Source: Stenotrophobium rhamnosiphilum (lineage in GTDB: Bacteria; Pseudomonadota; Gammaproteobacteria; Nevskiales; Nevskiaceae). Taken from it: a stretch of DNA of 64,000 nucleotides. A model generated the notes under the pieces. The model was not told the DNA's origin. It did not search any database and saw only the letters and a program-made list of their open reading frames with translations. The position numbers and the translations under genes were made by a program. Positions within the stretch are counted from its first letter, which is position 1, and every line of letters starts with the position of its first letter. Shown piece after piece: positions 36,253 through 55,137 of the stretch. The DNA lies in NCBI RefSeq assembly GCF_003052265.1, contig NZ_QANS01000002.1:682001-746000 (forward strand), in the 5' to 3' direction.

Positions 36253-37512
36253 TTAAACAGCATTTAACGCCACTACCTCAGGCGTCAGCATGCCGAAGTG
36301 CAGCTGCAGAATATCCAACTGCGCCTGACGCCCCACCCGAATCATGCGCGCCCGCCCACCGGGAAGAAGTTTGTGCAAGCCGTGCCAGGCAAAAGTGAAT
36401 GGCAGGCTAATCAGCGGATACCAAGGAAAAACAAATCGCGGCAGGCCTAGCGCCTGCATGCCACGTGCACCGACAAACAAACGCGTCACGCTGATATGTC
36501 GCGCACGTTCGAAGCGAACACGAAGCTTGCGTAGATGTTTGTACGGCAGCTGCAAAGTCTCTTGCATCAATGCATGGCCAAGTTGCTTGCTGCTGTCATC
36601 AGGCGGCAATTGCGTGAGCAGAAGTTGAAACAACAGCTTGCGCCCACCTTGTTCATCAAGTCGTATCCAGCGCTCATCCACACCCATCAACCAACAGGTG
36701 TAACTCCAGAGATGCATCACTGCGCGGCCTTCTTCTTTGCTGATCGGCATGCCCATCACGCGCAGACCAATCAGCAACACCACGCTAAAACCCAGATACG
36801 TTGCCGCCATATCCGCTTGATTCACCGGCACGCCCCACGCTGCGGCGTTCCACTCCGGCATCCCACGAACGCGACGACGAATCATCGCGTGCACCAAACG
36901 CACATGAACGGTGGATTTAAATCCGTCTGCGAAACGCTCCATGCCACCCACTTCGGTGACGTCATTACTCCACTTCATTGTCTCCGCGACACGACGTGAA
37001 GCGCGGCCTTTGAGCGCGCCAGTGAGGATTAATGTTTTGTTGAAACCAGCCGCCTGATAGCCACCCATCAAGGCTAAATCACGCAACACGTAATACGACG
37101 ACATACCTGCTTGCTGGAAAACTTCCGCACCCTGCCGGAGTAATTTGTCATCGACCCATTCAGGGCGTCGCTCACAAATTTCAAAGAATTCACGCAATGG
37201 CGCGGGCGCATCGGGAACACTGGCGACACCGTGATTCAGCGCGCGCTCAAACATCGGATGCGCTGCCTGCATGCCTGCCGTGTACATCCAATCAACCATG
37301 CGATCAGCGACTTCATCACCGTGAGTCAGCGCTTCACCCAAGGCCTGCCACTCATCCGGCGTCGGCTCAGCATTTCCACGAATCATCACCCCCACAGATT
37401 TGGCCATGCGACGGCCTTCAACCAAATCAGCGCCATGGCGCGTCGGGATTGGCGTCGCACCAGCGGGCTGGTTCAAAAATTGGGGTACAGCTTGGCTTGC
37501 AGTCGCGCTCAT
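36253..37512 (-). CDS. Lcp/MpaB-like haem oxygenase (DUF2236)
   Basis: 419 residues. The DUF2236 signature is present: RRVAETMKW followed 30 residues later by VRLVHAMIRRR. Arg174, Thr178 and His208 have exactly the spacing of the Arg164, Thr168 and haem-ligand His198 described for the rubber oxygenase Lcp of Streptomyces (recalled). The residue next to the Thr is Glu here where that Lcp has Lys. No signal peptide is obvious; hydrophobic segments lie near 235-255 and 365-385. It is divergent from a TetR gene. Cleavage of an isoprenoid polymer or lipid is a family-based guess. Confidence 0.75.
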   Translation of the reverse strand: MSATASQAVPQFLNQPAGATPIPTRHGADLVEGRRMAKSVGVMIRGNAEPTPDEWQALGEALTHGDEVADRMVDWMYTAGMQAAHPMFERALNHGVASVPDAPAPLREFFEICERRPEWVDDKLLRQGAEVFQQAGMSSYYVLRDLALMGGYQAAGFNKTLILTGALKGRASRRVAETMKWSNDVTEVGGMERFADGFKSTVHVRLVHAMIRRRVRGMPEWNAAAWGVPVNQADMAATYLGFSVVLLIGLRVMGMPISKEEGRAVMHLWSYTCWLMGVDERWIRLDEQGGRKLLFQLLLTQLPPDDSSKQLGHALMQETLQLPYKHLRKLRVRFERARHISVTRLFVGARGMQALGLPRFVFPWYPLISLPFTFAWHGLHKLLPGGRARMIRVGRQAQLDILQLHFGMLTPEVVALNAV

Positions 37513-37547
37513 CACGATTTGCTCTATTACGAGTGAGGCCGTACCTT

Positions 37548-37580
37548 AATGCGAATATTTGCTCGCATTCAATTCGCATT
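37548..37580. promoter_or_regulatory. Putative TetR operator
   Basis: AATGCGAA (37548-37555) and TTCGCATT (37573-37580) form perfect arms around 17 bp; a further CGCATTC lies inside. It lies between the DUF2236 gene and the TetR gene it presumably controls. Confidence 0.65.
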
Positions 37581-37600
37581 CTGAAATAGGTCCATTTCCC

Positions 37601-38251
37601 TTGCGCAAAGCCCCTCGCCAAGAACGCTCAAGAATCATGGTCGAAACCTTGGTCGACGCCGCCGCGCTGACCATCGCCGAACATGGGCTCGCGAATACCA
37701 CCACCAATCACATCGCCAAGAAAGCGGGCGTCAGCGTTGGCTCTCTTTATCAATACTTTGCGACCAAAGATGCGATTGTCGACGCACTCTCCGAGCGCAT
37801 GCGCAAAGAGCTGACGCAGGCGGTTGATGCCCAAGTCCGCGCCCTGCTAGACGCCGATTTGCACACGCTAACCCGCGGCGCGCTCACCGCGGTGTTCGAC
37901 TATTTTGAGATGCACAAAGGGTTGTATTTGGAGCTTGCTCGCAACTGGTACGACGCCAGAACCCTGCGCACGGTGGATTCGCTAGAGCGTTACATGACCG
38001 AGGCTTTCCGCCTCTACTTGCTGCGTCATCACGCGGAATACCGTTTTGAGAATTTGCCCGCGACGTTGTTCATCGTGTTTAACAGCACGGTCTTCACCGG
38101 CATGCGCTACATGAGCCAGCCGCAAAGCCATGTTAAACGTGAGGATGTGATCAACGGACTCACCGATATGGTGACCGGCTACTTGATGCAAACCGGCGCA
38201 GCGCCTTCAACGCCGGCGCGCACTCGCAAAAACACAAAAAATATTGGCTGA
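37601..38251 (+). CDS. TetR-family regulator
   Basis: 216 residues. HTH at about 15-60 with THHIAKKAGVSVGSLYQYF-like sequence (read NHIAKKAGVSVGSLYQYF). The frame is open from TTG 37559, but that start would place the operator palindrome inside the gene, so I chose TTG 37601, which begins MRKAPRQERS as in many relatives. No ATG precedes the HTH. It probably represses the divergent Lcp-like gene. Confidence 0.75.
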   Translation: MRKAPRQERSRIMVETLVDAAALTIAEHGLANTTTNHIAKKAGVSVGSLYQYFATKDAIVDALSERMRKELTQAVDAQVRALLDADLHTLTRGALTAVFDYFEMHKGLYLELARNWYDARTLRTVDSLERYMTEAFRLYLLRHHAEYRFENLPATLFIVFNSTVFTGMRYMSQPQSHVKREDVINGLTDMVTGYLMQTGAAPSTPARTRKNTKNIG

Positions 38252-39691: not shown

Positions 39692-41521
<1,830 letters not shown>

Positions 41522-41555
41522 ACTGACGCTGTTCACTAGCAAGCATCAGGCAATA

Positions 41556-41590
41556 AAAAAAGCGCCGCACAATTCGTGCAGCGCCTTTTT
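41556..41590. terminator. Bidirectional terminator
   Basis: AGGCGCTGCACGAATTGTGCGGCGCTT hairpin (minus strand) with A and T runs outside, between convergent recQ and the DUF3570 gene. Stem pairs GCGCCGCAC with GTGCAGCGC with one mismatch. Confidence 0.8.
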
Positions 41591-41601
41591 GCTTTCACTA
41601 C

Positions 41602-42792
41602 TTAGAAACGTCGACTCAACCGCAGATTCGCAGACCAGTACTGTACGAGGCCGGGGTTCTCGATTCCTACGTTTTTGATCGCGTAGTTAGCTGAAGCGTC
41701 GTAGTACTCAACGCCGCCGCCAAGCTCCCACTTGCCTAGGACTTTGCGCACGTCAACACGTCCGGCAATTGCGCCGTAAGGCGACAGTCTGTAATCGCTG
41801 GAGGCAAAGCCATCAGTGCGGAAATCAGCGTAGTAAGGCTGATAGAAGAACGCTTGCGACTGGCTATACCAACGCACACCTGGCGTTACACGCCAGGTAT
41901 CGCCGATCGTTTGATCCCACGACAGATCGACCGTATGCGACTCGATGCTCCAATCGCCGTGGTAATAGCGAGCATCGGCGCGTAGCGCAGCACCTAGGCT
42001 AGGAATGTAATGCCGCAGCTTTCCAGTGACTGCAAAAGTTTGTCGGCCATCGGGTCGGCTATCCGCAACAGGGCTGGCAATAGCAATGATGTAGGCCTGT
42101 TTGTATGGGTCACTCAAGAATCCGCTATCGCGACTCAAGCTCATCGACACCTGCGCCGTAGTTTGCGCGCTGAGCACCCATGACACGCCACCGTATCCCG
42201 TCACTGTGTTTTTGCTGGCGTGACTAATACGCGTTGGATATTGAGCGCTGCCGCCGTCCGTTGGGTCGAGTTTGTCGGAGGAATATCCGATGCCACCGCT
42301 GACGGTGTACATCTTATGTTCCGGTGTGTACTGGACTTCAACGCCGCCGTGAACAGACTTGTAATCGTTCTCGGAGGAATAGCCCGCGCGTAAACCCCAG
42401 TCAAGGCCTGCTAAGGGAATGCCGTAACTGACGTCAACAGCAACACGGTTTTCGCTAATGCTTGCGCCGCTCATGACTTGCACGGGCTTTCCATTTGCAC
42501 CGGGCTGCACCCACCAAGGGCTGGCACCGCTCATGGCTTCATAAGTGACATCAAGCTGAGCGACTTGATCTGCAGCGATTGGCGTTCCTGCTAATCGGAA
42601 TAAATGCGTATCCACTTTGTAGCGCTCAGAACCTTGTCCACTGGCGCTGCGATTTCCTGGCAGGTCACTTTCTTGATAATGCGAGAAAAGATAATCGGTC
42701 TGCACTTCAGCTTTTGCGATGCCGGGCAAAGCCAACGCGGCCGCCGTTAACGCCGACAGCGATGCACGCATTTTATTTTTGGGCTGGGTCAT
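41602..42792 (-). CDS. DUF3570 outer-membrane-like protein
   Basis: 396 residues. The signal peptide (KMRASLSALTAAALALPGIAKA) is followed by long alternating beta strands and a C-terminal NLRLSRRF ending in Phe, typical of outer-membrane barrels. It matches DUF3570 proteins, which occur beside DUF4266 and thioredoxin genes. Its ATG overlaps the TAA of the DUF4266 gene. The role is unknown; the fixed neighbourhood suggests it forms a surface unit with the small lipoprotein. Confidence 0.78.
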   Translation of the reverse strand: MTQPKNKMRASLSALTAAALALPGIAKAEVQTDYLFSHYQESDLPGNRSASGQGSERYKVDTHLFRLAGTPIAADQVAQLDVTYEAMSGASPWWVQPGANGKPVQVMSGASISENRVAVDVSYGIPLAGLDWGLRAGYSSENDYKSVHGGVEVQYTPEHKMYTVSGGIGYSSDKLDPTDGGSAQYPTRISHASKNTVTGYGGVSWVLSAQTTAQVSMSLSRDSGFLSDPYKQAYIIAIASPVADSRPDGRQTFAVTGKLRHYIPSLGAALRADARYYHGDWSIESHTVDLSWDQTIGDTWRVTPGVRWYSQSQAFFYQPYYADFRTDGFASSDYRLSPYGAIAGRVDVRKVLGKWELGGGVEYYDASANYAIKNVGIENPGLVQYWSANLRLSRRF

Positions 42793-43013
42793 TAGTTGCA
42801 CCCGCAACCGCCGCCACCCAGCGTGGTGTCCCCAGAGGCAGCTTCTTTGCTGACGGCAATATGCTGACGATAAGTCGTCAACAATTGATCTGACTCAAAC
42901 GCCATGCCCGGCTTGGCCAGATCACCGCGCTGCCACGGCTGCACGTTGGCACAACCTGTTAGCGCCAGCATCAATAAGGCAACACTCATTTTGAGCACAT
43001 TGTTCATTTTCAT
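42792..43013 (-). CDS. DUF4266 small lipoprotein with Gly/Cys tail
   Basis: 73 residues. The signal peptide ends in the lipobox LTGC (Cys21), so the mature part is only about 50 residues. The last residues are LGGGGCGCN, a Gly/Cys tail typical of DUF4266. The ATG overlaps the upstream TlpA-like stop (ATGA), and its own stop overlaps the DUF3570 start. A second ATG lies two codons in. The tail could bind metal, form disulfides under control of the adjacent thioredoxin, or be modified. Confidence 0.75.
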   Translation of the reverse strand: MKMNNVLKMSVALLMLALTGCANVQPWQRGDLAKPGMAFESDQLLTTYRQHIAVSKEAASGDTTLGGGGCGCN

Positions 43014-43507
43014 GGTTTCTCCCCCAGTACTGCTTTAATTGCCGCTTCAATCTGTGGCACATCCCGCTCTCGAAATCCTTTCTTCACAAAACGCACAACA
43101 CCTTTTGCATCAATCAAAAAAGATGACGGCATATCCTGCAAACCAAACGCTTCGGGCCATTGTCCCTTCGGATCAAACACGATCGGAAACGTTGGAACGA
43201 GCTGATCGATCATGCGTTGCGCGCTTTTGTGTTCGGTATCAACGTTGACGCCCAACACCGTAAATCCTTGCGCCTTGTAACGCTGATGCAAGGTATCCAA
43301 TGCGGGTATCGCCTGACGACAAGGCGCGCACCAGGATGCCCAAAAATCTACGTACACCACCTGACCGCGATATTGTTCAAGTGAAAGCGTTTTTCCATCA
43401 CTGGCTGGTGCGCTGAGATTAGGCACGACACTGCCTTCGCCCAATGCCATCGCTTGCGGCGATAGCAGCAGCACACTCAGAGCCAACAAGATGCGTAGAT
43501 ATCTCAT
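43010..43507 (-). CDS. TlpA-like periplasmic thioredoxin
   Basis: 165 residues. Signal peptide residues 1-22. The redox motif WCAPC has Cys60 and Cys63 and the cis-Pro is in MPSSFLID. It is in the TlpA/ResA/AhpC-TSA group, which keep apocytochrome cysteines reduced for haem attachment. It lies between genes for CxxCH-rich proteins and the Cys-tailed lipoprotein, so either could be its target. Start and stop overlap both neighbours. Confidence 0.85.
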   Translation of the reverse strand: MRYLRILLALSVLLLSPQAMALGEGSVVPNLSAPASDGKTLSLEQYRGQVVYVDFWASWCAPCRQAIPALDTLHQRYKAQGFTVLGVNVDTEHKSAQRMIDQLVPTFPIVFDPKGQWPEAFGLQDMPSSFLIDAKGVVRFVKKGFRERDVPQIEAAIKAVLGEKP

Positions 43508-45930
43508 AGCGTTTTCATGTACTCGATGAGCGCCTTGCGTTCTTGATCGGTCAGCACTGACGTGAACTCATGACCGCCGTTGTCTTGGCTATACATGCGC
43601 GTGTTGTAGATCTTGCGATCTTCAGCTTGTGCATTCGTCAGGATTGGAAGATTGGCCAAATTCCAAACTAATCCACCATTGGCATAAATCAGATTGAGAA
43701 AATCTTGAATCGTCGGCGCAGCATCCGCAGGATTGCAGTCGATGTACGGCGTTGTGCCGGTCACACCGCAAGCGAGAGCGTCGTACTTCCAACCCAAGTT
43801 CTGATTGTCGTAAGCGGCAAGATCGTATCTAAAGCCCATCACCTGACTCGTCTGATCGGGACGCGCCGTGTTGGACCAGCGACGCCAGATCGAGTGACGA
43901 TCAGAAGGCTTAAGCACGTCCCATGCGGTTGGTACTGCACCGTTGTGAAAATACGGTGCCGTGGCCCACACGCCGTAGAGCGGCGGTGCGAGATAGCCCA
44001 GTTCGCGATCACCACGCAGCGACTTATCGTTCCAGTCGCCACACAGCGGCACGCCATCAGCATTCTTTTCACCGTCGCTATACGCAAACCAATCTTGACG
44101 AGCGTACGTAGCAACCATCGCACTGTTGCCATCCAAACGTCTGCGATCGGTATCAATGACATCGATCGGAACAACGTTAGCCGCAATACCTTCTAGCGCT
44201 GGCGTATCGAGATACGCCGTATCGTTGACGTAACGCGGAGAGTACGCACCGTGGCAACTTGCACAAGAACCGTTTCCACCCGGTGGCTTTGGCACTGTAT
44301 TTTTCAGCGTGGGCGACCACAGATCTTTGCTATGGAAAAGAATCGCGCCCTGCTCAGCGAGTGCTGTATTGATTTTGCCGAGTTTGTTTTCCGGCCAAGC
44401 GGGCGACTTCTGCGATGCAATCCAGGCGTCGCTGTCTTGCTGGTGATCGAGAATCCACTTTTTATCGGCCGCCATGTCCGTATGGAAAGGCGTATTTGGA
44501 AAATGGAAAGACAGCTCGATGCGCTTAGCATCTGTGACTTGTCCCGCATCAAAGAACTTGGCAGACCGATGGCCGACATTCCACCAAACCGGCGGATCTT
44601 CGGTGCCCGTCGAAGGCTGCGTCTGGATCGAAAGATAGCCTGGAATAGTTGTGATTTCGCTGATAGTCAGCAAGCCGAATAACTGGAAGTTGGTGATGTT
44701 GCCGGTACCGCGCACTTTGTTCTGCGCGATGATCGCAAGCGCAGACTGCTGCGGTGCAAGTCTCGACAGATCGGTAAACATCAGTGTGATGTCACTGAGA
44801 CTATTGGTGCCGTACACCGAACCCAAGCCCGGACCATCCGACGCACTGCCAATGCCGCCACCGTGGCAGATGCTACAAGTCACATTGAGATTGCCAGTCC
44901 AACTGCCATCGGCCTTGCGCAATTGCGTCACACCCATCGGCAATTGTCCGCTGCCACCGTTGGTCTTGTTGGGGTCTTCACCCGCGAGCGGATAAGGATT
45001 GCGTGTTGGACTCAAAGGCATGCCCCAACGCTGCGCAATCAAGTCATCAAAGTTATCAGGACGTGCCGACATGCTCAACACGGAATCCCACATGCCCGCG
45101 TAATCAGCGGCCGGGAACGAGTAACTCGACGTAGAAGAACTACCTGAGAAAAAGCTGCCCGCACCAACCTGTCCGGCACTCGCAACAATCGGATATCCAC
45201 GCGCAACACGCGCACGTTGCTCACCGCAGTTCGCTGGCTTATTGCCTTCTTGGCAGGTCTGCCACCAAGCGTTCATGTAAACCGCTTTGTTCTTGTTGAC
45301 GCCAGGCACAACCAAAGTGCGTGGGTCATCCGGCAGCACCGTGTTATCGGGCTTGTCTACACAGAAGTCATCCCAAAGATGACCACCGCGCGCGCTACCC
45401 AGCAACGGAAATTCTGAAGTCACGGGTGTCGTCGTTCCAGCGGCAAGCAAGGCTGCGCAGTTGTCTGGATTGTCCCAGCAACCGAGTACGACTTTCATCG
45501 CGTTATAAGGCTGACTGCCTACAGGCCATGGCTGACCACCGCTGTGATGCTGCGCAGGATCGGATGGATTCGTCAGAATCTTGTTGGTCTCGACACCCTT
45601 ATCCAAAGCGATCCACGACTTGTAAACGTTGTCGTAATCCTCACTGCTGTTCGCAGACAGCATGAACAACTTGCCTTCATCCGTATCCGCAACACCGTCA
45701 GGCACATGACAAGTGCGGCAAAAATTCATATTGGTCTTAACACTCTTACCAAAGAATTCTTGAACGGTTTTAGAAGGCGCACCTGGCGTACCGGGGCCAC
45801 TGCCGCCATCTGGCGCGGGGCCACCGCTGTAATTACCCGAACAAGCACTTAGCAGCAGACTCGCACCAACTAATGAGGTCTTGATCGTTGCGTTCAACTG
45901 CACGCCTGGCGTTGCCTGAAAAATGTTCAT
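43504..45930 (-). CDS. Tri-haem RoxA-like lipoprotein, second copy
   Basis: 808 residues. Type II signal peptide with LSAC near residue 30, then a Gly/Pro-rich linker. Three c-type haem motifs are visible: CRTCH at 71-75, CSICH near 350 and CASCH near 554. NGSCASCHGAYSPRYV and APPLYGVWATAPYFHNGAVP resemble the rubber oxygenase RoxA/RoxB family, which carries two haems and is about 650-680 residues (recalled). The N-terminal third haem domain is extra. It is highly similar to the preceding gene's product. Its ATG overlaps the upstream stop (ATGA). Confidence 0.78.
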   Translation of the reverse strand: MNIFQATPGVQLNATIKTSLVGASLLLSACSGNYSGGPAPDGGSGPGTPGAPSKTVQEFFGKSVKTNMNFCRTCHVPDGVADTDEGKLFMLSANSSEDYDNVYKSWIALDKGVETNKILTNPSDPAQHHSGGQPWPVGSQPYNAMKVVLGCWDNPDNCAALLAAGTTTPVTSEFPLLGSARGGHLWDDFCVDKPDNTVLPDDPRTLVVPGVNKNKAVYMNAWWQTCQEGNKPANCGEQRARVARGYPIVASAGQVGAGSFFSGSSSTSSYSFPAADYAGMWDSVLSMSARPDNFDDLIAQRWGMPLSPTRNPYPLAGEDPNKTNGGSGQLPMGVTQLRKADGSWTGNLNVTCSICHGGGIGSASDGPGLGSVYGTNSLSDITLMFTDLSRLAPQQSALAIIAQNKVRGTGNITNFQLFGLLTISEITTIPGYLSIQTQPSTGTEDPPVWWNVGHRSAKFFDAGQVTDAKRIELSFHFPNTPFHTDMAADKKWILDHQQDSDAWIASQKSPAWPENKLGKINTALAEQGAILFHSKDLWSPTLKNTVPKPPGGNGSCASCHGAYSPRYVNDTAYLDTPALEGIAANVVPIDVIDTDRRRLDGNSAMVATYARQDWFAYSDGEKNADGVPLCGDWNDKSLRGDRELGYLAPPLYGVWATAPYFHNGAVPTAWDVLKPSDRHSIWRRWSNTARPDQTSQVMGFRYDLAAYDNQNLGWKYDALACGVTGTTPYIDCNPADAAPTIQDFLNLIYANGGLVWNLANLPILTNAQAEDRKIYNTRMYSQDNGGHEFTSVLTDQERKALIEYMKTL

Positions 45931-48320
45931 AAGGTTTTCAAATACTCGAGTATCGCTTTACGCTCTTGTTCGTTGAGCACTGAAGTGAACGTATGACCGA
46001 CATTGCTCTGGCCATACATATGCGTGTTGTAAATTTTACGATTCTCTAATTGCTGATCGGTACTCGGCGCTAGGCCCAGATACCAGAGGAAAGGATTGCT
46101 GGAGTTTAGGATGTTAATCATCTGTCCCAGCGCTGGATCTGCGTCTTGATTGGCGGGATCGCAATCCAAATACGGCGTCGTGCCGGGCGCACCGCAAGCG
46201 AGTGCATCGTATTTCCAGCCTAACTTTTCCTTGTCATAAGCACGTTGGAAATTCGTGTCGTAGCCCATCACCACTTTGCCAAGTTGATCAAAGCGCGCTG
46301 GCGTAGAGACACGACGCCAGATTGATTTGCGCTCTGCGGGATTCAATATTTCCATCACGTTTGGCACAGAACCATTGTGTAAATATGGCCCGCTTGCCCA
46401 TACACCGTATAGCGGCGGTGCGAGATAACCCGGCGCGCGTCCTTGGCGAATCTCTGCGCGATTCTGCGTGCTGCAGTCGAGATTAGGATCGCTGTTGATC
46501 GTCTCCGGATATGCAAAGAAATCTTCTTTGCCATATTGCTCTGCCGCTTCGCTGTCGCTATCAACCCGCCACTTATCCGTGGCAATCAAATCACGCGGAA
46601 CGATGTAACTCGCGACGCCTTCCAACGCTGGCGTGTCCAGATATCTTGAATCGTTCACGTAACGCGGCGAGTAAGCGCCGTGACAGCTCGCGCATGAACC
46701 GTTACCACCTTCAGGCTTTGGTGAAGGATTGTCGAGCCCCTCTGCCCAAAGATTTTTGCTGTGGAATAACACCGCGCCCTGCTCTGCCAATGCCGTGTTG
46801 ATCGGCCCTGGAAATGCCGGCGACTTGAGTGACATCAGCCAAGTATCACCAGCACGCACATGCTCTTTTACCCAGCCAAAACCATCAGGTCCCGGGCCCG
46901 GCAGGAAGAAACCAAAATCTGCGCGCAGTGCATCCATCGCCAGAAATCCATCTTGGAACTTGGTTGGACGATGACCCATGTTCCACCACGCTGGCGTATC
47001 AAGCGAACCGCCGTTGGGTGTAAACACTGTGAAGCCAATAAAGTTGGGATCGAGCGGACGCAGATCGCCTGCTACAAGGAAAGTAATGATCTGCAATGCC
47101 AATGCGTTATTGGTGCCGCGCGTTTTGCCGACGATGATTGGCACAGGAATCGGAACGCCGGGAACAGCACTGCCACCGAGATCGGTATCTAGCTGACCAA
47201 ACTCGCTGAGGCTATTCGAGTTGCCGTAGAGCGCACCAAGACCGGGGCCATCTGCGGGTGTACCGACCTGACCGCTGTGGCAGACATGACAGTTGGTGCC
47301 GATGTTGCCGGTCCAGCGACCTTCGGCGTCATGTGTCTGCGTAAGTCCTGTCGGCAACTGACCAGTGCCACCATTGGTTTTATTGGGGTCTTCACCCGGC
47401 AATGGATACGGATTGCGCGCCGCCCCCATGCCCATTCCATAACGCTCGGCAACAAGCTGATCGAAATTATCAGGACGCGATGGAAGTCCCCACTTCTCCC
47501 ACACGGTGTTGTATTTCGCGGCCGTGAGATTGCCCTTGGAACCATTGCCGCCGAAATACCAACCCGCACCGATTGCGCCATTGCCTTCGATCAAGGTGCG
47601 ACCTTGTGCAGAAAGCGTACGCAACTCGCCGCAGGTTTTTGCGGGCGCAGCTTCGCCTACTTTTTCTGGCTCGCGATGGCAGTCTTTCCAGAAGGCGTTG
47701 TAGTACACCGCCTTGTTAGCGTTGATGCCGGGTTGCACGAGACTGCGTGGATCAGCAGGCAACACGGTGCTGTCACTTTTGCCTTCGCAGAAATCAAACC
47801 ACGCGTGGCCACCGCGTGCGCTGCCTAGTAAAGCTAGTGGTGCAGTTGGCGTGGAAACATTGCTCGCAAGAAGTGCGGCGCAGCTATCCGGATTCTCCCA
47901 GCAACCCAACACCACTTTCAGCGCGTTGTAAGGCTGACTGCCAACAGGCCAAGGCTGACCACCACTGTGATGCTGTGCGGGATCAGAAGGATTGGTCAGA
48001 ATCTTGTTGGTCTCGACGCCTTTGTCCAAAGCGATCCACGAGTCATACACATTGTCGTAGTCTTCATTGGGATTGCTTGAGAGCATGAACAGCTTGCCCT
48101 CATCCGTATCCGCAACACCGCCTGGCACGTGACACGTGCGACAGTTATTGAGATTGGTCTGTGCGCTCTTGCCAAAAAATTCCTGCACGGTCTTGGATGG
48201 CGTGCCGGAATCGGTGCCACCGTTGTTTCCCGACGTCGCAGTGCCGCCGCTGTAATTGCCGGAACATGCACTCAGCAACAGCACTGCAACGAGGCCATTA
48301 GCCCGGGAAAAACTCCGCAT
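45927..48320 (-). CDS. Tri-haem RoxA-like lipoprotein, first copy
   Basis: 797 residues. Lipobox LSAC near residue 19. Haem motifs are CRTCH at 60-64, CHVCH near 343 and CASCH near 543. The C-terminal half has LAPPLYGVWASGPYLHNGSV and ends FTSVLNEQERKAILEYLKTL, as in the paralogue. A strong GGAGGAGAAAACG site precedes the ATG at 48320, so it is the first gene of the five-gene operon. It should be exported, lipidated and loaded with three haems. Oxidative cleavage of a hydrophobic polymer, or a peroxidase-like role, is inferred from the family only. Confidence 0.8.
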   Translation of the reverse strand: MRSFSRANGLVAVLLLSACSGNYSGGTATSGNNGGTDSGTPSKTVQEFFGKSAQTNLNNCRTCHVPGGVADTDEGKLFMLSSNPNEDYDNVYDSWIALDKGVETNKILTNPSDPAQHHSGGQPWPVGSQPYNALKVVLGCWENPDSCAALLASNVSTPTAPLALLGSARGGHAWFDFCEGKSDSTVLPADPRSLVQPGINANKAVYYNAFWKDCHREPEKVGEAAPAKTCGELRTLSAQGRTLIEGNGAIGAGWYFGGNGSKGNLTAAKYNTVWEKWGLPSRPDNFDQLVAERYGMGMGAARNPYPLPGEDPNKTNGGTGQLPTGLTQTHDAEGRWTGNIGTNCHVCHSGQVGTPADGPGLGALYGNSNSLSEFGQLDTDLGGSAVPGVPIPVPIIVGKTRGTNNALALQIITFLVAGDLRPLDPNFIGFTVFTPNGGSLDTPAWWNMGHRPTKFQDGFLAMDALRADFGFFLPGPGPDGFGWVKEHVRAGDTWLMSLKSPAFPGPINTALAEQGAVLFHSKNLWAEGLDNPSPKPEGGNGSCASCHGAYSPRYVNDSRYLDTPALEGVASYIVPRDLIATDKWRVDSDSEAAEQYGKEDFFAYPETINSDPNLDCSTQNRAEIRQGRAPGYLAPPLYGVWASGPYLHNGSVPNVMEILNPAERKSIWRRVSTPARFDQLGKVVMGYDTNFQRAYDKEKLGWKYDALACGAPGTTPYLDCDPANQDADPALGQMINILNSSNPFLWYLGLAPSTDQQLENRKIYNTHMYGQSNVGHTFTSVLNEQERKAILEYLKTL

Positions 48321-48406
48321 CGTTTTCTCCTCCAGACAGGTCATAGCCCACCGGAATATGTATGTACGCGTGGGCTTTGCCTCTATCGCGTTTAGTGTCT
48401 AAACTT

Positions 48407-48438
48407 AATCCGAGTAATTGCTCAGGTCTACTCGGATT
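48407..48438. promoter_or_regulatory. Putative TetR operator of the haem-protein operon
   Basis: AATCCGAGTA (48407-48416) and TACTCGGATT (48429-48438) are perfect inverted arms around 12 bp. They lie in the 129-bp divergent gap, 12 bp before the TetR start. Confidence 0.7.
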
Positions 48439-48449
48439 TCACACCCCCT

Positions 48450-49085
48450 ATGGCACGCCCCACCAAGAAGGCTTATCTCGCTGATTTAACAGCTAAAAAG
48501 AACCCTTCTCAACCCCGTGCAAAAGCCACCGTTACGGCCATGCTGGATGCTGCTGCTCAGATACTTGAGCGTGAGGGTTACAACGGGGTAACCACGAATC
48601 ACGTCGCAGAAGCCGCTGGCGTCAGCATTGGCTCACTCTATGAATACTTTCCGAACAAGCAGTCGATCATCGCCGCAGCCTTGGCGCGCGAGCTCGGAGA
48701 AATTGCGAATGAAGTGAAAGCCAGCATGCGCACCGCACTCGCTCTGCCCGATCAACCGCGCGGCGGCATTGATCACTGGATGCGCGGAATGATGTCTGCA
48801 CTGGAGAAGCGCGGGAAATTGTTACGTGTTGCGATGCGAGAAGTGCCTTTCTTCTGGGATATTCCAGAAGCACGCGATCTCTCAGAAACGCTGCAACACA
48901 TCGCCGCCGAAGGTCGTCAAAAAAGCGAGCGCGTGCTGCACTTTGAAGATCCGGAAGCGGATACCTACTTGCTGATGACGATGTGTTGGGCGGCGATTCA
49001 ACAAACGGTGCTCTATCGACCCACACATATTTCGCGTGAGCGCCTCACACGTACTTTGGTCGATATGGTGACCAAACTACTCTGA
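48450..49085 (+). CDS. TetR-family regulator
   Basis: 211 residues. HTH at about 30-75 with VAEAAGVSIGSLYEYFPNK. The C-terminal domain is helical and has a TetR_C-type ending. It is divergent from the five-gene haem-protein operon, with a perfect palindrome in the shared promoter. It is therefore the likely local repressor, responding to a substrate or product of that system. Confidence 0.87.
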   Translation: MARPTKKAYLADLTAKKNPSQPRAKATVTAMLDAAAQILEREGYNGVTTNHVAEAAGVSIGSLYEYFPNKQSIIAAALARELGEIANEVKASMRTALALPDQPRGGIDHWMRGMMSALEKRGKLLRVAMREVPFFWDIPEARDLSETLQHIAAEGRQKSERVLHFEDPEADTYLLMTMCWAAIQQTVLYRPTHISRERLTRTLVDMVTKLL

Positions 49086-49089
49086 CGCT

Positions 49090-49884
49090 TTAGTTGCCTG
49101 TGAAGTTAGCCTTGCGCTTCTGCGCGAAGGCTAACGTGCCTTCAGCAAAGTCATTTGTTCTTCCGCATTCACGTTGCAGCTCACGTTCAAGCACGAGTTG
49201 CTCGGCAAGCTCATTGCTGTGCGCTGCATGCAGCGTCTGCTTGATGCGCGCAAGCGCAGCGCTGGGGCCGCTGGCAAGACGATTCGCGAGCGCACTGACG
49301 GTCGTCATCAACGCATCATCATCCACCACATCCCAGATCAAGCCCCAGTCTTTGGCTTTTTCTGCAGGAAGTTTTTCACCCAGCATCGCCAAACCCATCG
49401 CGCGTTGTGGGCCGATGCTGCGAGGGAGGATCCAAGTGCCGCCTGCATCCGGAACCAACCCGATATTCACGAAGGCCTGTAGGAAATATGCAGAGCGAGC
49501 CGCAATGGTGAGATCCGCCATCAACGCGAATGAAGCACCCGCACCAGCGGCCATGCCATTGACTGCAGCAATGATTGGCTTGGGCATTGCGCGCATCTTC
49601 AGCACTAGTGGGTTGTAGTACTGCTCCAGCGGCAAGCCCAAATCCAACTGACCTTCCGCGTCGATCGGCGGATTCGCCATGTTCTGCGCGAGATCCGCGC
49701 CGGAACAAAATCCGCGTCCTTCACCTGTGAGAACAATCACCTTCACTTCTGCTTCGCTCGCAGCGCGATCAAACGCTGCAGAGAGTTGCGCCAGTGAATC
49801 GAAGGTCACTGCATTCAATGCCTGTGGGCGATTGAAGCTAATGATCGCAACGCCATTCTCAGAACGGTAAAGGATGTCGGACAT
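49090..49884 (-). CDS. Enoyl-CoA hydratase/isomerase
   Basis: 264 residues. The crotonase motifs are GEGRGFCSGADL and NGMAAGAGASFALMADL (oxyanion hole), with VPDAGGTWILPR carrying the usual catalytic-loop position: Asp stands where Glu is common in hydratases, so isomerase or PaaG/BadK-like activity is possible. It is the last gene of the five-gene catabolic operon, 2 bp after the acyl-CoA dehydrogenase. Confidence 0.87.
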   Translation of the reverse strand: MSDILYRSENGVAIISFNRPQALNAVTFDSLAQLSAAFDRAASEAEVKVIVLTGEGRGFCSGADLAQNMANPPIDAEGQLDLGLPLEQYYNPLVLKMRAMPKPIIAAVNGMAAGAGASFALMADLTIAARSAYFLQAFVNIGLVPDAGGTWILPRSIGPQRAMGLAMLGEKLPAEKAKDWGLIWDVVDDDALMTTVSALANRLASGPSAALARIKQTLHAAHSNELAEQLVLERELQRECGRTNDFAEGTLAFAQKRKANFTGN

Positions 49885-49886
49885 GA

Positions 49887-51026
49887 TTAATCCAAGGTTG
49901 AGCGCGCGATGATTTCCTTCATGATCTCAGAAGTGCCTGCGAGGATGCGATGAATGCGCTCATCTTGATACAGACGGCAGATCGGATATTCGTCCATATA
50001 ACCTGCACCACCGTGTAGCTGCACACCTTCATCCACCATACGGCCATTCACTTCGCTGGTGTAGAGCTTGGCGCGTGCGGCGTCGTCGGGGCTCAGCTTG
50101 CCTTCGTTGTGCATTTCGACGCAACGATCGACGTAGACCTGTGCGATATCAATTTCCGTATCCAACGCGGCCAATTTGAAGCGCGTGTTCTGCATCTTGC
50201 TCAGTGGCTTGCCAAAAACTTTACGCTGACGCACGAAATCTTTGGTCAATTCCAGCGCATAACGTGCAGAAGCGATGTTGCCGCAAGCGCCAATCAAACG
50301 CTCTTCAGCCAAGCCCTGCATCAGGTGATAGAAACCGCCATCGACCTTGCCGAGCACATTAGCCTTGGGAACCTTCACATCACGGAAGAACAGCTCTGCG
50401 GTGTCTTGCGACTGCATGCCCATCTTCTTCAGATTACGGCCGCGTTCGAAACCTTCCATGCCGCGCTCGACGATGAATAGCGTCACGCCATGTGCGTTAT
50501 CGGCGTGCGTCTTAGCTGCAACAATCACAACATCAGCATTGATGCCGTTGGAGATGTAAGTCTTGGAGCCATTGAGCAACCAGTGGTCACCCTTGTCGAC
50601 TGCGCGTGATTTCATACCAGCGAGGTCGGAACCTGCATCAGGCTCGGTCATCGCAATCGCGAGAATCTTTTCGCCGCTGATAAAGCCGGGGAACAGACGC
50701 TCTTTCTGTTCTTCAGTTCCGAAGTGGCCAATGTATGGCGCAACCAAGCGGCTGTGCAGCGTGATGAAGAATCCAGAATCACCGTGAAATGCGTTCTCTT
50801 CAATCAAGATTTGTTCATAACGAAAATCCTTGATGCCTTGGCCGCCGTACTTCTCGTCAGCCCACATGCACAGCAGGCCCATGTCACCGGCTTTCTTGTA
50901 AGCCTCGCGATCAATGATGTGTGCCTCGCGCCAACGCTCACCGTGTGGGCGAATTTCTTGCTGAAAGAATTTACGTGCCGAGTCACGGAACATTTCCATC
51001 TCGGAATCCAGCGGCCTACGTTTCAT
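49887..51026 (-). CDS. Acyl-CoA dehydrogenase
   Basis: 379 residues. Motifs are AMTEPDAGSDLAGMKS, WLLNGSKTYISNG and C-terminal LHGGAGYMDEYPICRLYQDERI, including the region with the catalytic Glu of short/medium-chain enzymes. It uses FAD to make a trans-2-enoyl-CoA and passes electrons to ETF. It lies between the acetoacetate-decarboxylase-like gene and the hydratase, making a beta-oxidation step. Confidence 0.92.
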   Translation of the reverse strand: MKRRPLDSEMEMFRDSARKFFQQEIRPHGERWREAHIIDREAYKKAGDMGLLCMWADEKYGGQGIKDFRYEQILIEENAFHGDSGFFITLHSRLVAPYIGHFGTEEQKERLFPGFISGEKILAIAMTEPDAGSDLAGMKSRAVDKGDHWLLNGSKTYISNGINADVVIVAAKTHADNAHGVTLFIVERGMEGFERGRNLKKMGMQSQDTAELFFRDVKVPKANVLGKVDGGFYHLMQGLAEERLIGACGNIASARYALELTKDFVRQRKVFGKPLSKMQNTRFKLAALDTEIDIAQVYVDRCVEMHNEGKLSPDDAARAKLYTSEVNGRMVDEGVQLHGGAGYMDEYPICRLYQDERIHRILAGTSEIMKEIIARSTLD

Positions 51027-51049
51027 GCAACAGCTCCTCGGTATTATTT

Positions 51050-51739
51050 TTATTTAGCGACTGGTCGAATCGTTGATTCGTGGAAAGTCATATTGAATTT
51101 GGAAACGCCAACGGTCAGCAATGAAGTGGCCTGCGCCAGATCAGGGAATACGGTCGGGTCAAACTTCGAACGCTTCAGACTGCCCGGACGCACCCAGCCT
51201 TTGGCTGAAGGCTGATAGACATAGCTCTTGCCGTCGAGATGCTGACCCAGCGTGATCCAGCTATTCGGCAGCATCGCAGTAGTGAACGGCAGCGAGATTG
51301 GCCAAGAGACAAAGTCCATCTCAGCGAAAGTTTTGCCATCGAGACTGACGCTGACACAGTCGAGTCCATTCTCGCCATAGCGCACGTCAAACTGTGCAAC
51401 AGCTTTAGGAATACCCCAATTGCGTTGACCATTCACAACGCTGTCGAGCGACGACACGAAGATGCGGCTGATCGACAGATGTCGCTTGCCGTCTTCAAAC
51501 GGAAAAGTGCCAGGAATGAACAGCAACTCGTGATACGGACCCACCGGAGAATCTGAGTAATCGACAAACATCATGTAGCAGAAGCGCGATGCGCCGCGAC
51601 GGCCGCGCAGTGATGGCTCGACGAAACGTTCGTCGTCAAGCAGCGCTGCAGGCGCGCGGAACATGCAGATATAACCACGACCGAGCAACGTCCATGGAGC
51701 TGGCGCGTCGATCACGGCGGGTGGAGTTTGGGTATTCAT
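51050..51739 (-). CDS. Acetoacetate decarboxylase-like protein
   Basis: 229 residues. The ADC-superfamily fold is indicated by HLSISRIFVSS and RNWGIPKAVAQFD. The Schiff-base Lys of true acetoacetate decarboxylase sits in an EPKK-type motif I do not see in that form, and the Lys in GIPK is the candidate. It may be a decarboxylase, hydratase or aldolase-like enzyme. It is co-directional and close (24 bp) to its operon neighbours. Confidence 0.72.
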   Translation of the reverse strand: MNTQTPPAVIDAPAPWTLLGRGYICMFRAPAALLDDERFVEPSLRGRRGASRFCYMMFVDYSDSPVGPYHELLFIPGTFPFEDGKRHLSISRIFVSSLDSVVNGQRNWGIPKAVAQFDVRYGENGLDCVSVSLDGKTFAEMDFVSWPISLPFTTAMLPNSWITLGQHLDGKSYVYQPSAKGWVRPGSLKRSKFDPTVFPDLAQATSLLTVGVSKFNMTFHESTIRPVAK

Positions 51740-51763
51740 TTCAATTCCTTTTAAAAATTCTTG

Positions 51764-53449
51764 CTACTGCCAAATCACTGCGCGCTTCAGCTCAGACCAC
51801 TTTTCAGCCTGCGGCATGTAACGCTCTTCAATGATGTTGCGTTTGATTTTGAGTGTGGGCGTGAGGAAACCGTTCTCGACCGTCCATGGTTCATTCACCA
51901 CGACGAGAAAATCGAGTTGCTCATGATCTTCAAGTTCTTTATTCACGCGATCCAGAACGATCTGAAGTTCCCCGCCCATGGCAGCCTGACCGCCACTCTG
52001 CAAGCGCTGATGCGCTTCTGGTGACAACATCACCAAGGCAAAAGGTTGCGCCAAACCGGAGCCGGTGACGCAGGAAGATTCAACGACAGGATGGCTACCA
52101 ATTCGATTTTCGATTGGCGCTGGCGCAACGTACTTGCCCTTGCTGGTCTTGAACAGTTCCTTCACGCGACCAGTTATGCGCACGCGACCGATCTCATCAA
52201 AAGCCCCACGATCGCCGGTGCGGAAGAAACCGTCTTCGGTCATTTCTTCTGCTGTTTTCTCAGGCATCTTGTAGTAGCCCGTCATCTGACAAGGGCTCTT
52301 CACCAGCAGCTCGCCGTTGTTATCGATGCGTGACTCAACACCTGCATAGGCCTGACCAATCCAACCGTCACGCACATTGCCCGGCTGCGCCCCATGCGAG
52401 TACGCAAAGTTTTCGCTCATACCGTAGACCTCGAGCAGATCAAGGCCGAGCTTGCGATACCAGTTCATCAACTCCTGCGGCAGTGGCGCGGAACCAGTGA
52501 GCGCAACGCGTACATCCTGCAAGCCGAGTTGTGTGAGAATTTTCTTCTTGATGATCTTGGAAACAAACGGAATAGCGAACAGCTTCTTCTGTTTGGCCAG
52601 CGGCAACTTCTGGTTTACGCCCAGATAGAACTTGGTCCACAGACGTGGAACCGAGAAGAAAATGGTTGGCGTTGCGCGACGCAAATCCGCGGGAAAAGTG
52701 TCGAGCTTGTCAGCGAAGAAGATGCGGCAGCCGTTATACAAGGAACCTGACTCCACCAGCGCGCGTTCAGCAACGTGTGCCAAAGGCAGATACGACAACA
52801 AACGATCGTTCGCAGACAGGTGCAGCATGCGATTCAAACCTTCAGCCGAACGCGTGAAGCTGCCGTGGCTGTGCATCACACCTTTCGGGCGACCGGTGCT
52901 GCCTGAGGTGTAGAGAATCGTTGCGAGGTCATCAGCACTTGGCAGTTTCAGGTCCTGCAAAGGCTGCGTGTTGGCGATGATGGTTTCCCATTGAGGCACG
53001 TCATCACGCGGGGCCATCGGCAGCGCAATGATCGGCAAGCCCTTGGGCACAACCGGCGCAATCTCGTTCCAGCCATCGCTCTTGCCGTCCATCTTGCCGA
53101 GGAACAGCAACTTCGCTTCGCTGTGCTCCAAAATGTAACCAGCGGTATCGCCATTAAGCGCAGGATAAAGCGGCACAGTGATGTGACCCGCCATCCAGAT
53201 CGCGAGATCCGCCATGATCCAATGCGCGCTGTTCTTGCCGAGCAAAGCAATATTGCTACGCGGCGGCAGATTCAATGAACGCAAATGCGTCGCCATGCGA
53301 CGCACCTGACTCGCAACTTCTACCCATGTGTAATCGACCACGCGGCCATCGGCATAAGGCTGCGTCATGTACACACGATGTGTCTGCGTCACTTCCCAAT
53401 GCAGCAGGCAATGCAGCAACGTGGTCTTTGGATTCTTGGTGGCCGCCAT
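51764..53449 (-). CDS. AMP-forming acyl-CoA synthetase
   Basis: 561 residues. The P-loop LYTSGSTGRPKG, the motif YGMSENFAYSHG and the hinge ITGRVKELFKTSKGKYV match long-chain acyl-CoA ligases of the FadD15/AMP-binding type. It activates a free acid to its CoA ester. GAGGAGCTACAG before ATG 53449 supports this start over the longer frame. It follows the monooxygenase gene and feeds the beta-oxidation enzymes downstream. Confidence 0.9.
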   Translation of the reverse strand: MAATKNPKTTLLHCLLHWEVTQTHRVYMTQPYADGRVVDYTWVEVASQVRRMATHLRSLNLPPRSNIALLGKNSAHWIMADLAIWMAGHITVPLYPALNGDTAGYILEHSEAKLLFLGKMDGKSDGWNEIAPVVPKGLPIIALPMAPRDDVPQWETIIANTQPLQDLKLPSADDLATILYTSGSTGRPKGVMHSHGSFTRSAEGLNRMLHLSANDRLLSYLPLAHVAERALVESGSLYNGCRIFFADKLDTFPADLRRATPTIFFSVPRLWTKFYLGVNQKLPLAKQKKLFAIPFVSKIIKKKILTQLGLQDVRVALTGSAPLPQELMNWYRKLGLDLLEVYGMSENFAYSHGAQPGNVRDGWIGQAYAGVESRIDNNGELLVKSPCQMTGYYKMPEKTAEEMTEDGFFRTGDRGAFDEIGRVRITGRVKELFKTSKGKYVAPAPIENRIGSHPVVESSCVTGSGLAQPFALVMLSPEAHQRLQSGGQAAMGGELQIVLDRVNKELEDHEQLDFLVVVNEPWTVENGFLTPTLKIKRNIIEERYMPQAEKWSELKRAVIWQ

Positions 53450-53527
53450 CTGTAGCTCCTCGTTGGAATCGATCATGTCGATTCCATATCTAGTTTTGAT
53501 TTTGTCTCAACGCCAAACCGCTTTGCC

Positions 53528-55015
53528 TCACGCCGCTGCAGTAGAAGCTTTCTCGCTCTGAAAATCTTCGGCGATTGGTTCCGCGCAACGGCGGCGGAAC
53601 TCCACCATGGAGCCAACCCAGTTGTTGGTGTTGACGCCCTCAGCGGTTTTGTACCAACTCTGGCAATCGCCTGAGTACGTGGTTTCAGCACTGCGGGAAT
53701 CCATTTCGTTCTTGTAGCGAGCCTGCGCTGCTGCAGTCACTTCAATGCTGCGCCAGTTATTCTGCACACGCTGCTTCATCAACTTGGCGATGTAGTTCTG
53801 CTGCTGCTCCAACATGAAGATGATTGAGCCAGCGCCAACGTTGGTGTTAGGACCGTACAACACATAGAAATTCGGATAGCCAGAAATCGCCATGCCCAGA
53901 TAAGCGGAAGCGCCCTTCGCCCAATCGGTATGCAAATCGCGACCGTTGCGGCCGGTCACCCGCATTGGCGTGAGGAACTGCGTCGCAGCAAAGCCGGTGC
54001 CGTAGATGATGGCATCGACTTCATGCAACTTGCCGTCTGCGGTGCGCACACCGGTCTCGGTTATTTCGGTGACTGCATCAACGACCACATCCACATTAGA
54101 ACGCGTCAACGCTGGCAACCAATCGTTGCTGAGCAGAAGGCGTTTACAACCAATCGCGAATTCCGGCGTGAGCTTTTTACGCAATTCCGGATCACGCACC
54201 TGCCAACGCATTTGCAGTTTGGAGAGTGCCGTTACCAGCCACAACAAAGGTTTGTTGCCGTTGTAAGCCTTGGCCAGCGTTTCGATGAACAAGAAGATGC
54301 GTAGACGATCAAGCGTATGCAGAATCGGAAATGTGTTGAACAACCAGAGCTCGAAGTTCGACAGCTTTTTCTCAGCCTTGGGGAAAGTCCAACCGGGTGA
54401 GCGCTGGAACAGCTCAAGCGATTTCACCGTTTTCGCAATCTCCGGGAGGAACTGCACGGCGCTCGCACCGCTACCAATCACTGCAACTTTTTTATCTTTG
54501 AGATCGAAACTGTGATCCCAATGCGCTGAGTGGAAAGCCGCGCCTTTGAATTTTTCGCGACCCGCAATCTTTGGGTACGCCGCTTGGTGCAACTGGCCGA
54601 CAGCACTAACCACGCTCTCTGCCTCCAGCGTGCTGCCATCTTTCATCTGCAGCACCCACACGGCGCGTGCATCGTCATACGCAGTGCTCGTTACTTCGGT
54701 GCGATAGCGAATGTGTTTTTCGAGATCGTATTTGCTTGCAATGTGGTGCTGATATTTCAGAATCTCGCTCTGCTTGGCGTAGCGCCATTCCCATGAATAA
54801 TGAGATTCGAACGAGTATGAGTAGAAGTGCGAAGGCACGTCGCAGCCGCAGCCCGGATAAGTGTTCTCACGCCAAGTGCCACCAAGGTCATCGGCTTTTT
54901 CAAGAATCACAATTGAGTCGATACCCGATTTGCGCAGCGAATACGCCATGCCAAGACCGCCGAAGCCTGAGCCAATGATCGCGACCTTGCAGCTGTTGTT
55001 TGCCTGATTAGCCAT
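53528..55015 (-). CDS. Baeyer-Villiger-type flavin monooxygenase
   Basis: 495 residues. VAIIGSGFGGLGMAYSL, GGTWRENTYPGCGCDV, BVMO fingerprint FKGAAFHSAHWDH and NADPH motif AVIGSGASAVQFLP are all present. It is a paralogue of the gene at 27244. The ATG 55015 begins MANQANN just before the FAD motif; the frame extends 37 codons upstream without conserved content. First gene of the catabolic operon, divergent from the AraC gene. Confidence 0.88.
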   Translation of the reverse strand: MANQANNSCKVAIIGSGFGGLGMAYSLRKSGIDSIVILEKADDLGGTWRENTYPGCGCDVPSHFYSYSFESHYSWEWRYAKQSEILKYQHHIASKYDLEKHIRYRTEVTSTAYDDARAVWVLQMKDGSTLEAESVVSAVGQLHQAAYPKIAGREKFKGAAFHSAHWDHSFDLKDKKVAVIGSGASAVQFLPEIAKTVKSLELFQRSPGWTFPKAEKKLSNFELWLFNTFPILHTLDRLRIFLFIETLAKAYNGNKPLLWLVTALSKLQMRWQVRDPELRKKLTPEFAIGCKRLLLSNDWLPALTRSNVDVVVDAVTEITETGVRTADGKLHEVDAIIYGTGFAATQFLTPMRVTGRNGRDLHTDWAKGASAYLGMAISGYPNFYVLYGPNTNVGAGSIIFMLEQQQNYIAKLMKQRVQNNWRSIEVTAAAQARYKNEMDSRSAETTYSGDCQSWYKTAEGVNTNNWVGSMVEFRRRCAEPIAEDFQSEKASTAAA

Positions 55016-55137
55016 CTGAATTACCGAGTTGGGGTACTGATGAGGCCAGATAATGACCACTCCGCCATCGTTAGGGGATGACGGTAGCAGCCATTCGATT
55101 GATAATCGAGGCCAGTCTATAGTCATCCCGATGGGTT

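Follow-up and report, generated by a model that had tools for sequence, protein, structure and literature searches.

A 64,000-nucleotide stretch of Stenotrophobium rhamnosiphilum DNA (the window; assembly GCF_003052265.1, contig NZ_QANS01000002.1, positions 682,001-746,000, forward strand) contains a minus-strand operon that joins two tri-haem RoxA-like lipoproteins, Rox-A and Rox-B, to a trio composed of a TlpA/ResA-like thioredoxin, a DUF4266 lipoprotein and a DUF3570 barrel protein. We tentatively propose, at slightly less than an even chance, that the operon encodes an outer-membrane alkene-cleaving oxygenase pair fed electrons by a flavin/thiol module. The genes run in the order Rox-A, Rox-B, TlpA, DUF4266 and DUF3570, with successive overlaps of 4, 4, 4 and 1 bp. 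An earlier reading of the letters alone (the sequence-only reading) had described five genes overlapping by 1-4 bp, two large paralogues each with three CxxCH motifs and a lipobox, and a TetR gene diverging across a perfect palindrome, and this layout is borne out. The features of the region are:

41602-42807, minus strand: frame of the predicted outer-membrane barrel DUF3570, likely ATG at 42792 (PF12094, E 3.1e-57)
42792-43013, minus strand: DUF4266 small lipoprotein with an LTGC lipobox and the C-terminal sequence GGGGCGCN (CxC) (PF14086, E 1.3e-19)
43010-43507, minus strand: TlpA/ResA-like thioredoxin, CAPC, signal peptide by inspection (Pfam Redoxin, E 8.7e-28; AhpC-TSA)
43504-45930, minus strand: Rox-B, tri-haem paralogue of 808 residues, 'F/F' clade (RoxA-like cytochrome c, PF21419)
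45927-48344, minus strand: frame of Rox-A, tri-haem RoxA-like lipoprotein of 797 residues, 'Q/F' clade, start most likely at 48320 (RoxA-like cytochrome c, PF21419)
48405-48438, no strand: operator-like site with a perfect inverted repeat (arms 48407-48416 and 48429-48438)
48450-49085, plus strand: TetR regulator, divergent from Rox-A (TetR_N, E 2.7e-15)

Rox-A and Rox-B are 55% identical to one another. Each carries three haem motifs (CRTCH, CHVCH and CASCH in Rox-A; CRTCH, CSICH and CASCH in Rox-B), an LLLSA-C lipobox assigned by motif only, and an isoelectric point (pI) of 5.25 in the mature form. The sole PDB sequence match of Rox-A is RoxA (4b2n), aligned over residues 175-797 at E 1.2e-120. 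An AlphaFold2 model of Rox-A (predicted local distance difference test score, pLDDT, 78; predicted template modelling score, pTM, 0.87) matches 4b2n_A alone below E 0.001, at E 2.4e-47. Scores on the di-haem peroxidase model NF040606 are 102 and 116 bits, short of its cut-off of 150. The family scores and the structure match rule out an ordinary di-haem peroxidase, in line with the RoxA-like assignment of the sequence-only reading.

RoxA and RoxB cleave rubber, and the polyisoprene products of RoxB are C20 and larger. The window proteins resemble RoxA and RoxB of S. cummioxidans 35Y in their fold (by model), in the core haem ligands equivalent to H195, H394 and H641 of RoxA, and in F317, all four residues being kept in both proteins. 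Unlike RoxA and RoxB, which are di-haem proteins with standard secretion signals (PMC10837239), they add a lipobox and an N-terminal haem domain of ~150 residues, and W302 is replaced by Gln in Rox-A and by Phe in Rox-B. The extra N-terminal ~170 residues of Rox-A relative to RoxA hold the third motif, CRTCH, and a second histidine completes the ligand pair of this N-terminal haem (N-haem), which in Rox-A consists of His64 and His118. Among 29 N-haem domain rows the CxxCH histidine is present in 27 and the second histidine in 28. This bis-His haem looks like an electron-transfer haem. The residue mapping was checked on RoxC of Fontimonas thermophila (RoxC_Fth, L051; L-numbers denote DNA loci fetched from other genomes and G-numbers genomes), for which it gives Ala at F317 and Phe at W302, matching the publication.

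RoxC proteins are lipoproteins, many with a third haem, in which the F317 and W302 equivalents are replaced and whose function is unknown (Prakash 2024, PMC10837239). Rox-A and Rox-B share with them the lipobox, the N-terminal CRTCH haem with its second histidine, the CASCH core haem and the acidic pI, and many RoxC members come from the same bacterial order as the window host. They differ from RoxC_Fth in keeping F317, which is Ala in that protein, and in having CHVCH or CSICH where it has CFQCH. On the NCBIfam RoxC model (NF051462, cut-off 900) Rox-A and Rox-B score 826.4 and 805.7 bits, and Fontimonas RoxC (G030:C19) scores 1391.7. The RoxB model (NF050034, cut-off 900) gives 855.4 bits for Rox-A and 920.8 for Rox-B, and the RoxA model (NF050033) 495 and 444 bits, below its cut-off of 1000.

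In a tree of 59 Rox rows, the clade of Rox-A has 8 rows and that of Rox-B has 3, each supported at 100/100. RoxC_Fth lies in a separate 15-row clade (100/99), and both window proteins also stand outside a 19-row clade of di-haem RoxB-like proteins (CHACH/CHGCH/CNGCH, V or I at W302). The placement of RoxA 4b2n, L045_7604, L047_9689 and L064, all long branches, is unsure, as is that of the long Rox proteins L023/L059 and L075_9623, flagged as joining the outgroup. RoxA, RoxB and LatA of characterised strains are absent from this tree as full sequences; in the published neighbour-joining tree of PMC10837239 the window proteins may sit in the broader third cluster. Filing the pair as RoxC was rejected on the missed NF051462 cut-off, the retained F317 and the clade separate from RoxC_Fth. 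Filing it as RoxB was rejected as well: both proteins have three haems and a lipobox and lie outside the di-haem RoxB-like clade. On the RoxB cut-off the pair splits, with Rox-B above it and Rox-A below.

Adjacent Rox genes belong to different clades at the loci that were read closely, with a Q/F plus F/F pair in the window and L060 and a Q/F plus F/A pair in L039/L073, L065 and L075. Such pairing may, by analogy, recall the cooperation of RoxA and RoxB (PMC10837239). A divergent tri-haem Rox with CFSCH and CAGCH motifs, in which W302 and F317 are both kept, was observed at L059:7796-11902 (plus) and L075:9623-13369 (minus), where it directly precedes DUF4266-DUF3570 without TlpA. Pfam finds no fused extra domain in the long Rox frames of 1249-1416 residues, and their extra length is probably upstream open frame. 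Four genomes (G008, G027, G032 and G037) have at least 10 RoxC-model matches each, in several arrays.

The trio corresponds to a known kind of redox module. Méheust 2021 (PMC8238504) shows a DUF3570 to be flavinylated by ApbE at two [ST]GA[ST] motifs, and describes clusters, of uncertain function, in which ApbE and DUF3570 occur with a thioredoxin-like protein and a CxC-bearing DUF4266; some also contain DsbD. The window resembles these clusters in the two motifs, the thioredoxin-like protein and the CxC tail. It differs in that ApbE lies elsewhere in the genome, in its partners, which are two Rox cytochromes, and in its thioredoxin, whose domain is of the Redoxin/AhpC-TSA type (PF13899 is not among its Pfam matches). 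The DUF4266 protein is the sole DUF4266 match in its genome, and its CxC tail is present in 43 of the 43 rows listed, three of which are duplicates.

The two motifs of the window DUF3570 are both SGAS, at residues 87-90 and 107-110 of the 395-residue modelled protein (41605-42789; the start Met is not included, so full-protein numbers are higher by 1). The AlphaFold2 model of DUF3570 (pLDDT 91.7, pTM 0.86) contains 16 long strands and matches outer-membrane barrels, best BcsC, FadL and PelB-type proteins, at template modelling scores of about 0.4-0.5, which indicates a general match. The strand order of the model places both SGAS motifs in the second of the long loops, opposite the termini. 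In a DUF3570 tree of 40 rows, the window protein belongs to a 26-row clade (99/99), of which 19 rows have Rox close by, four have Rox 5-23 kb off and three lack Rox; because the sample is enriched for Rox-linked loci, with 17 Rox-less trio loci drawn from 46 such places, these proportions are not frequencies. Among the other 14 rows, 13 lack Rox and one (L040) has a di-haem Rox about 5 kb away. Both SGA[ST] motifs, about 20 residues apart, are found in 24 of the 26 rows of the window's clade.

An ApbE is plausibly supplied in trans from C19:237441 of the same genome, judging from its relatives: it falls in a 14-row ApbE clade (99/98) that mostly adjoins window-type DUF3570 (11 rows; the others are an isolated same-genus ApbE, a contig-end fragment and C19:237441 itself). 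Loci L063, L070 and L073 were excluded from the DUF3570 and ApbE trees. The stretch around the host-genome ApbE (L053, G000:C19:229500-246500) shows it isolated, at about 7879-8805 on the minus strand, with no DUF3570 or DUF4266 match in the stretch.

Linkage between Rox and the trio was surveyed in 85 genomes of the order (Nevskiales), which hold 64 DUF4266 places. Rox lies within 10 kb at 18 of these, from 17 genomes, on the same strand in 17; random placement, with rounded genome sizes and relatedness ignored, predicts 0.56. Short or weak RoxC-model fragments were left out of this count, as were such hits in G017 and G034. DUF3570 is present at all 18 Rox-linked loci and TlpA at 14. The fullest set, with two Rox genes, TlpA, DUF4266 and DUF3570 and no ApbE between them, occurs at four (the window, L060, L065 and L073, the last from Sinimarinibacterium sp. 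CAU 1509). The genes are indeed kept together elsewhere. Other orders are TlpA-DUF4266-DUF3570-ApbE-Rox (L056), Rox-acyl-CoA dehydrogenase-enoyl-CoA hydratase-TlpA-DUF4266-DUF3570-ApbE (L057), and N-haem gene-DUF4266-DUF3570-ApbE-TlpA-Rox core (L066, L069). The last two genomes encode the N-terminal haem domain on its own, in a gene adjoining DUF4266, which ties the N-haem to the flavin module. These separate lipoproteins, at L066:10659-11390 (minus) and L069:6487-7320 (plus), correspond to the N-terminal haem domain of RoxC, and each has a second CxxCH near the C-terminus.

At the level of whole genomes, DUF4266 is found in 29 of 30 Rox genomes and 16 of 55 others (Fisher 3.8e-10), and within the family in 20 of 21 versus 15 of 37 (p 2.5e-5); G017 and G034, which have weak partial Rox matches only, were counted among the 55 others. 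A Spongiibacteraceae genome (L047), outside the order, also has the trio beside Rox. Of 28 named Rox loci, 4/11 with a tri-haem-clade Rox and 1/17 with di-haem Rox only have DUF4266/DUF3570 in the fetched stretch, a small contrast in the same direction as the main count. The following were taken as the same DNA: L039 and L073, L051 and L063, L027 and L070, L025 and L072, L043 and L061, and L045 and L058.

The intergenic region between TetR and Rox-A contains the inverted repeat AATCCGAGTA (48407-48416) and TACTCGGATT (48429-48438), whose 10-bp arms are fully complementary and separated by a 12-nucleotide gap. Nine distinct loci, the window among them, have a close homologue of the TetR protein (>300 bits) next to Rox; all were preselected for Rox or DUF4266, and outside the window these homologues adjoin tri-haem-type Rox genes. 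The 34-bp site holding the repeat is found again in seven other genomes, each time between TetR and Rox homologues. It occupies the TetR-Rox gap at eight of the nine loci, with a half-site only in the ninth (L074). In a matrix scan, 11 places scored above 14 bits; every one lies in a TetR-Rox gap, one being the reverse reading of the window palindrome, and one mononucleotide shuffle gave none. The matrix was trained on seven of the sites, which makes this a description and not an independent test. The site appears from its sequence distribution to belong to Rox promoters, where TetR would act as a repressor. A sigma-70-type promoter scan of 41300-49300 gave 0 sites (shuffles averaged 5.3), and terminator-like sites in the same interval numbered 6, against 8.1 in shuffles, an uninformative scan.

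A catabolic unit (49090-55126, minus strand) lies upstream of the Rox operon, and its genes recur at other Rox loci:

49090-49884, minus strand: enoyl-CoA hydratase/isomerase (64% homologue between Rox and the trio in L057)
49887-51026, minus strand: acyl-CoA dehydrogenase (83% homologue between Rox and the trio in L057)
51050-51739, minus strand: acetoacetate-decarboxylase-like protein (PF06314 below cut-off; homologues in Rox loci L025, L039)
51764-53476, minus strand: AMP-forming acyl-CoA ligase (homologues of 55-57% in Rox loci L025, L039, L060, L061, L068)
53528-55126, minus strand: Baeyer-Villiger-type flavin monooxygenase (homologues of 59-68% in L025, L039, L060, L061, L065)
55138-56151, plus strand: AraC-family regulator, divergent from the monooxygenase (homologues of 49-54% in L025, L039, L060, L061, L065)

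A further acyl-CoA dehydrogenase homologue (75%) lies between Rox and DUF4266/DUF3570 in L027. The Baeyer-Villiger-type gene and its divergent AraC gene are next to a Q/F Rox in five of the seven other Q/F clade members. Recurrent neighbours were clustered as single-linked open reading frames, and shadow-frame 'families' without a Pfam match were dropped. These neighbours go beyond the sequence-only reading, as do the SGAS motifs of DUF3570, the CxC tail of DUF4266 and a nearby gene of the Lcp rubber-oxygenase/MpaB family.

The Lcp-family gene (36253-37515, minus strand; PF09995, E 1.6e-18; no NCBIfam match) lies 4 kb from the Rox operon and is accompanied by a second TetR gene (37559-38251, plus strand). 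Over residues 84-286 its product matches LcpK30 (PDB 5o1l) at E 1.8e-15, and in this alignment the Arg, Thr and His taken for the conserved R164, T168 and H198 are kept. No homologue of this protein was seen in the fetched Rox loci.

In the proposed mechanism, each Rox lipoprotein would combine a RoxA-like di-haem catalytic core with an N-terminal bis-His c-haem domain. Periplasmic TlpA would reduce the DUF4266 lipoprotein at its CxC tail, and DUF4266 may in turn hand electrons to flavin mononucleotide (FMN) carried on two serines of the DUF3570 outer-membrane barrel and attached there by the ApbE encoded elsewhere in the genome. The FMN could then reduce the N-terminal Rox haem, which would relay electrons to the core so that the haem of the active site becomes or stays ferrous and able to bind O2. 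The trio is proposed to reduce Rox because the N-haem looks electron-transferring and adjoins the flavin module, and because isolated RoxC is ferric and inactive; both expressed RoxCs were all-ferric as isolated and gave no rubber cleavage (PMC10837239 Table 1). The Rox pair, perhaps cooperating like RoxA and RoxB, would cleave C=C bonds at the cell surface in a substrate that is hydrophobic and probably isoprenoid, and the resulting aldehyde and ketone ends would feed the Baeyer-Villiger-type monooxygenase, acyl-CoA ligase, dehydrogenase and hydratase. An isoprenoid is favoured since a methyl-branched C=C, once cleaved, yields an aldehyde plus a methyl ketone, products that the neighbouring enzymes could use. 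Expression would be set by TetR acting on the conserved operator-like site.

A more specific version of this mechanism is doubtful: the flavin-bearing barrel would be a redox conduit through which electrons from periplasmic thiols cross the outer membrane and reach anchored, extracellular tri-haem oxygenases, and RoxC and its relatives would have been inactive when tested for want of this partner. MtrCAB-type porin-cytochrome conduits are outer-membrane barrels that pass electrons to cytochromes. Compared with MtrCAB, the flavin would sit on the barrel itself; the likeness would be one of arrangement, and no homology to such conduits was seen, the MtrC/MtrF domain PF22113 giving no more than a sub-threshold match in Rox-A.

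Several observations weigh against an electron-fed oxygenase. No Rox lies within 10 kb of 46 of the 64 DUF4266 places, where the trio behaves as a general module, and the 28 named loci show its linkage to Rox to be frequent, not general. TlpA is missing from 4 of the 18 Rox-linked loci, and ApbE is near only 7 of them, with none in the other 11 within the DNA seen; a recheck by profile search again gave seven. The operon itself contains no ApbE, the three in the genome all lying on other contigs, and the ApbEs beside window-type DUF3570 in L056, L066 and L069 fall outside the 14-row clade. W302 is conserved in neither Rox protein, in the window the catabolic genes belong to a different transcription unit, and the matrix scan did not find the operator-like site in front of trios lying apart from Rox. 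Because the genomes share ancestry, the statistics treat them as more independent than they are. The chief objection comes from RoxB and Lcp, which are isolated ferric and are active without a known dedicated reductase (PMC10837239; PMC6311187), which means that a Rox dioxygenase need not have one.

In one alternative, Rox-A and Rox-B are RoxB-type rubber oxygenases needing no reductase and the trio is only co-expressed. The score of Rox-B above the NCBIfam RoxB cut-off (921 versus 900), the retained F317, the Lcp-family gene 4 kb away and the activity of RoxB despite its ferric state as isolated (PMC6311187) all point this way. We nevertheless consider it quite unlikely, given that both proteins stand outside the di-haem RoxB-like clade and are lipid-anchored with three haems, that the trio linkage is far above chance, and that the separate N-haem gene also sits with the trio. 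A peroxidase on the pattern of E. coli YhjA is a serious rival, although still an unlikely one; here Rox would sit at the outer membrane and use flavin-module electrons, arriving via the N-haem, for the reduction of H2O2 or lipid hydroperoxides. According to PMC10301912, an extra N-terminal haem is the proposed electron entry of tri-haem YhjA, joined to a peroxidase-type di-haem core, with quinol as the proposed electron source. The likeness to the window proteins would be functional: they have a lipobox and a flavin barrel and are Rox, not cytochrome c peroxidase, by sequence. A dedicated electron donor suits a peroxidase better than a dioxygenase, and the structural closeness of the RoxA core to cytochrome c peroxidases and the lack of rubber cleavage by the two expressed RoxCs (PMC10837239) fit as well. 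What speaks for an oxygenase instead is the sole PDB match to RoxA, the peroxidase-model scores of 102 and 116 against 150, the catabolic nature of the recurrent neighbours, and the retention in both proteins of F317, a residue said to stabilise the O2 that RoxA binds.

The sequence-only reading had offered 'electron flow or maturation' as the role of the accessory genes. Electron flow is the better supported half, DUF3570 being a reported ApbE substrate (PMC8238504). Under maturation, TlpA and DUF4266 would keep the cysteines of apo-Rox reduced in the manner of CcmG/ResA, and DUF3570 would aid Rox export or anchoring. TlpA is ResA-like, three c-haems are needed per Rox and the genes overlap; this reading is very unlikely all the same, because at least 40 of the 46 DUF4266 places without Rox have ApbE within 5 kb, which suggests an independent redox function for the trio, and because the flavinylation motifs of DUF3570 are conserved and TlpA can be absent. 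Equally improbable is outward electron transfer, with DUF3570 and the Rox haems delivering electrons to extracellular iron or quinone and Rox serving as a surface reductase. A barrel with multihaem lipoproteins recalls porin-cytochrome conduits. According to PMC8238504, 25 DUF3570-type clusters include a VIT1 iron transporter. In the window, the core is RoxA-like with the O2-site Phe kept, no iron-uptake family appears among the annotated genes, and monooxygenase and acyl-CoA genes recur instead.

As far as our searches show, the novelty of the electron-fed oxygenase lies in joining two known kinds of system, Rox and the flavin module. The sequence-only reading knew of no description of the combination, and none of Rox with TlpA, DUF4266 and DUF3570, nor any paper on 'rubber oxygenase' together with DUF3570, was found in the literature searched (subscription papers and preprints lay outside its scope), where a single paper mentions DUF3570 or DUF4266. 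Its components do have precedents: tri-haem lipoproteins are known as RoxC (PMC10837239), and the thioredoxin, DUF4266 and DUF3570 set with ApbE appears in PMC8238504. RoxC, with no known function, and the DUF3570 module, with an uncertain one, each gain a candidate partner. The pairing may explain why tri-haem Rox proteins have so far shown no rubber cleavage; Fontimonas RoxC, tested and reported inactive, has a trio 3 kb from its own gene (L051). Should the barrel indeed hand electrons to Rox, a Gram-negative cell would have a means of driving oxidations beyond its own envelope, useful for polymer and hydrocarbon degradation.

Other genes were also noted in the window. A DUF1329/DUF1302 outer-membrane protein pair (58773-60131 and 60158-62197, both minus strand) lies close to the catabolic unit. 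A secreted glycosyl-hydrolase-like protein (57229-58659, plus strand) with Cellulase GH5 and GH39 matches is out of keeping with its neighbours.

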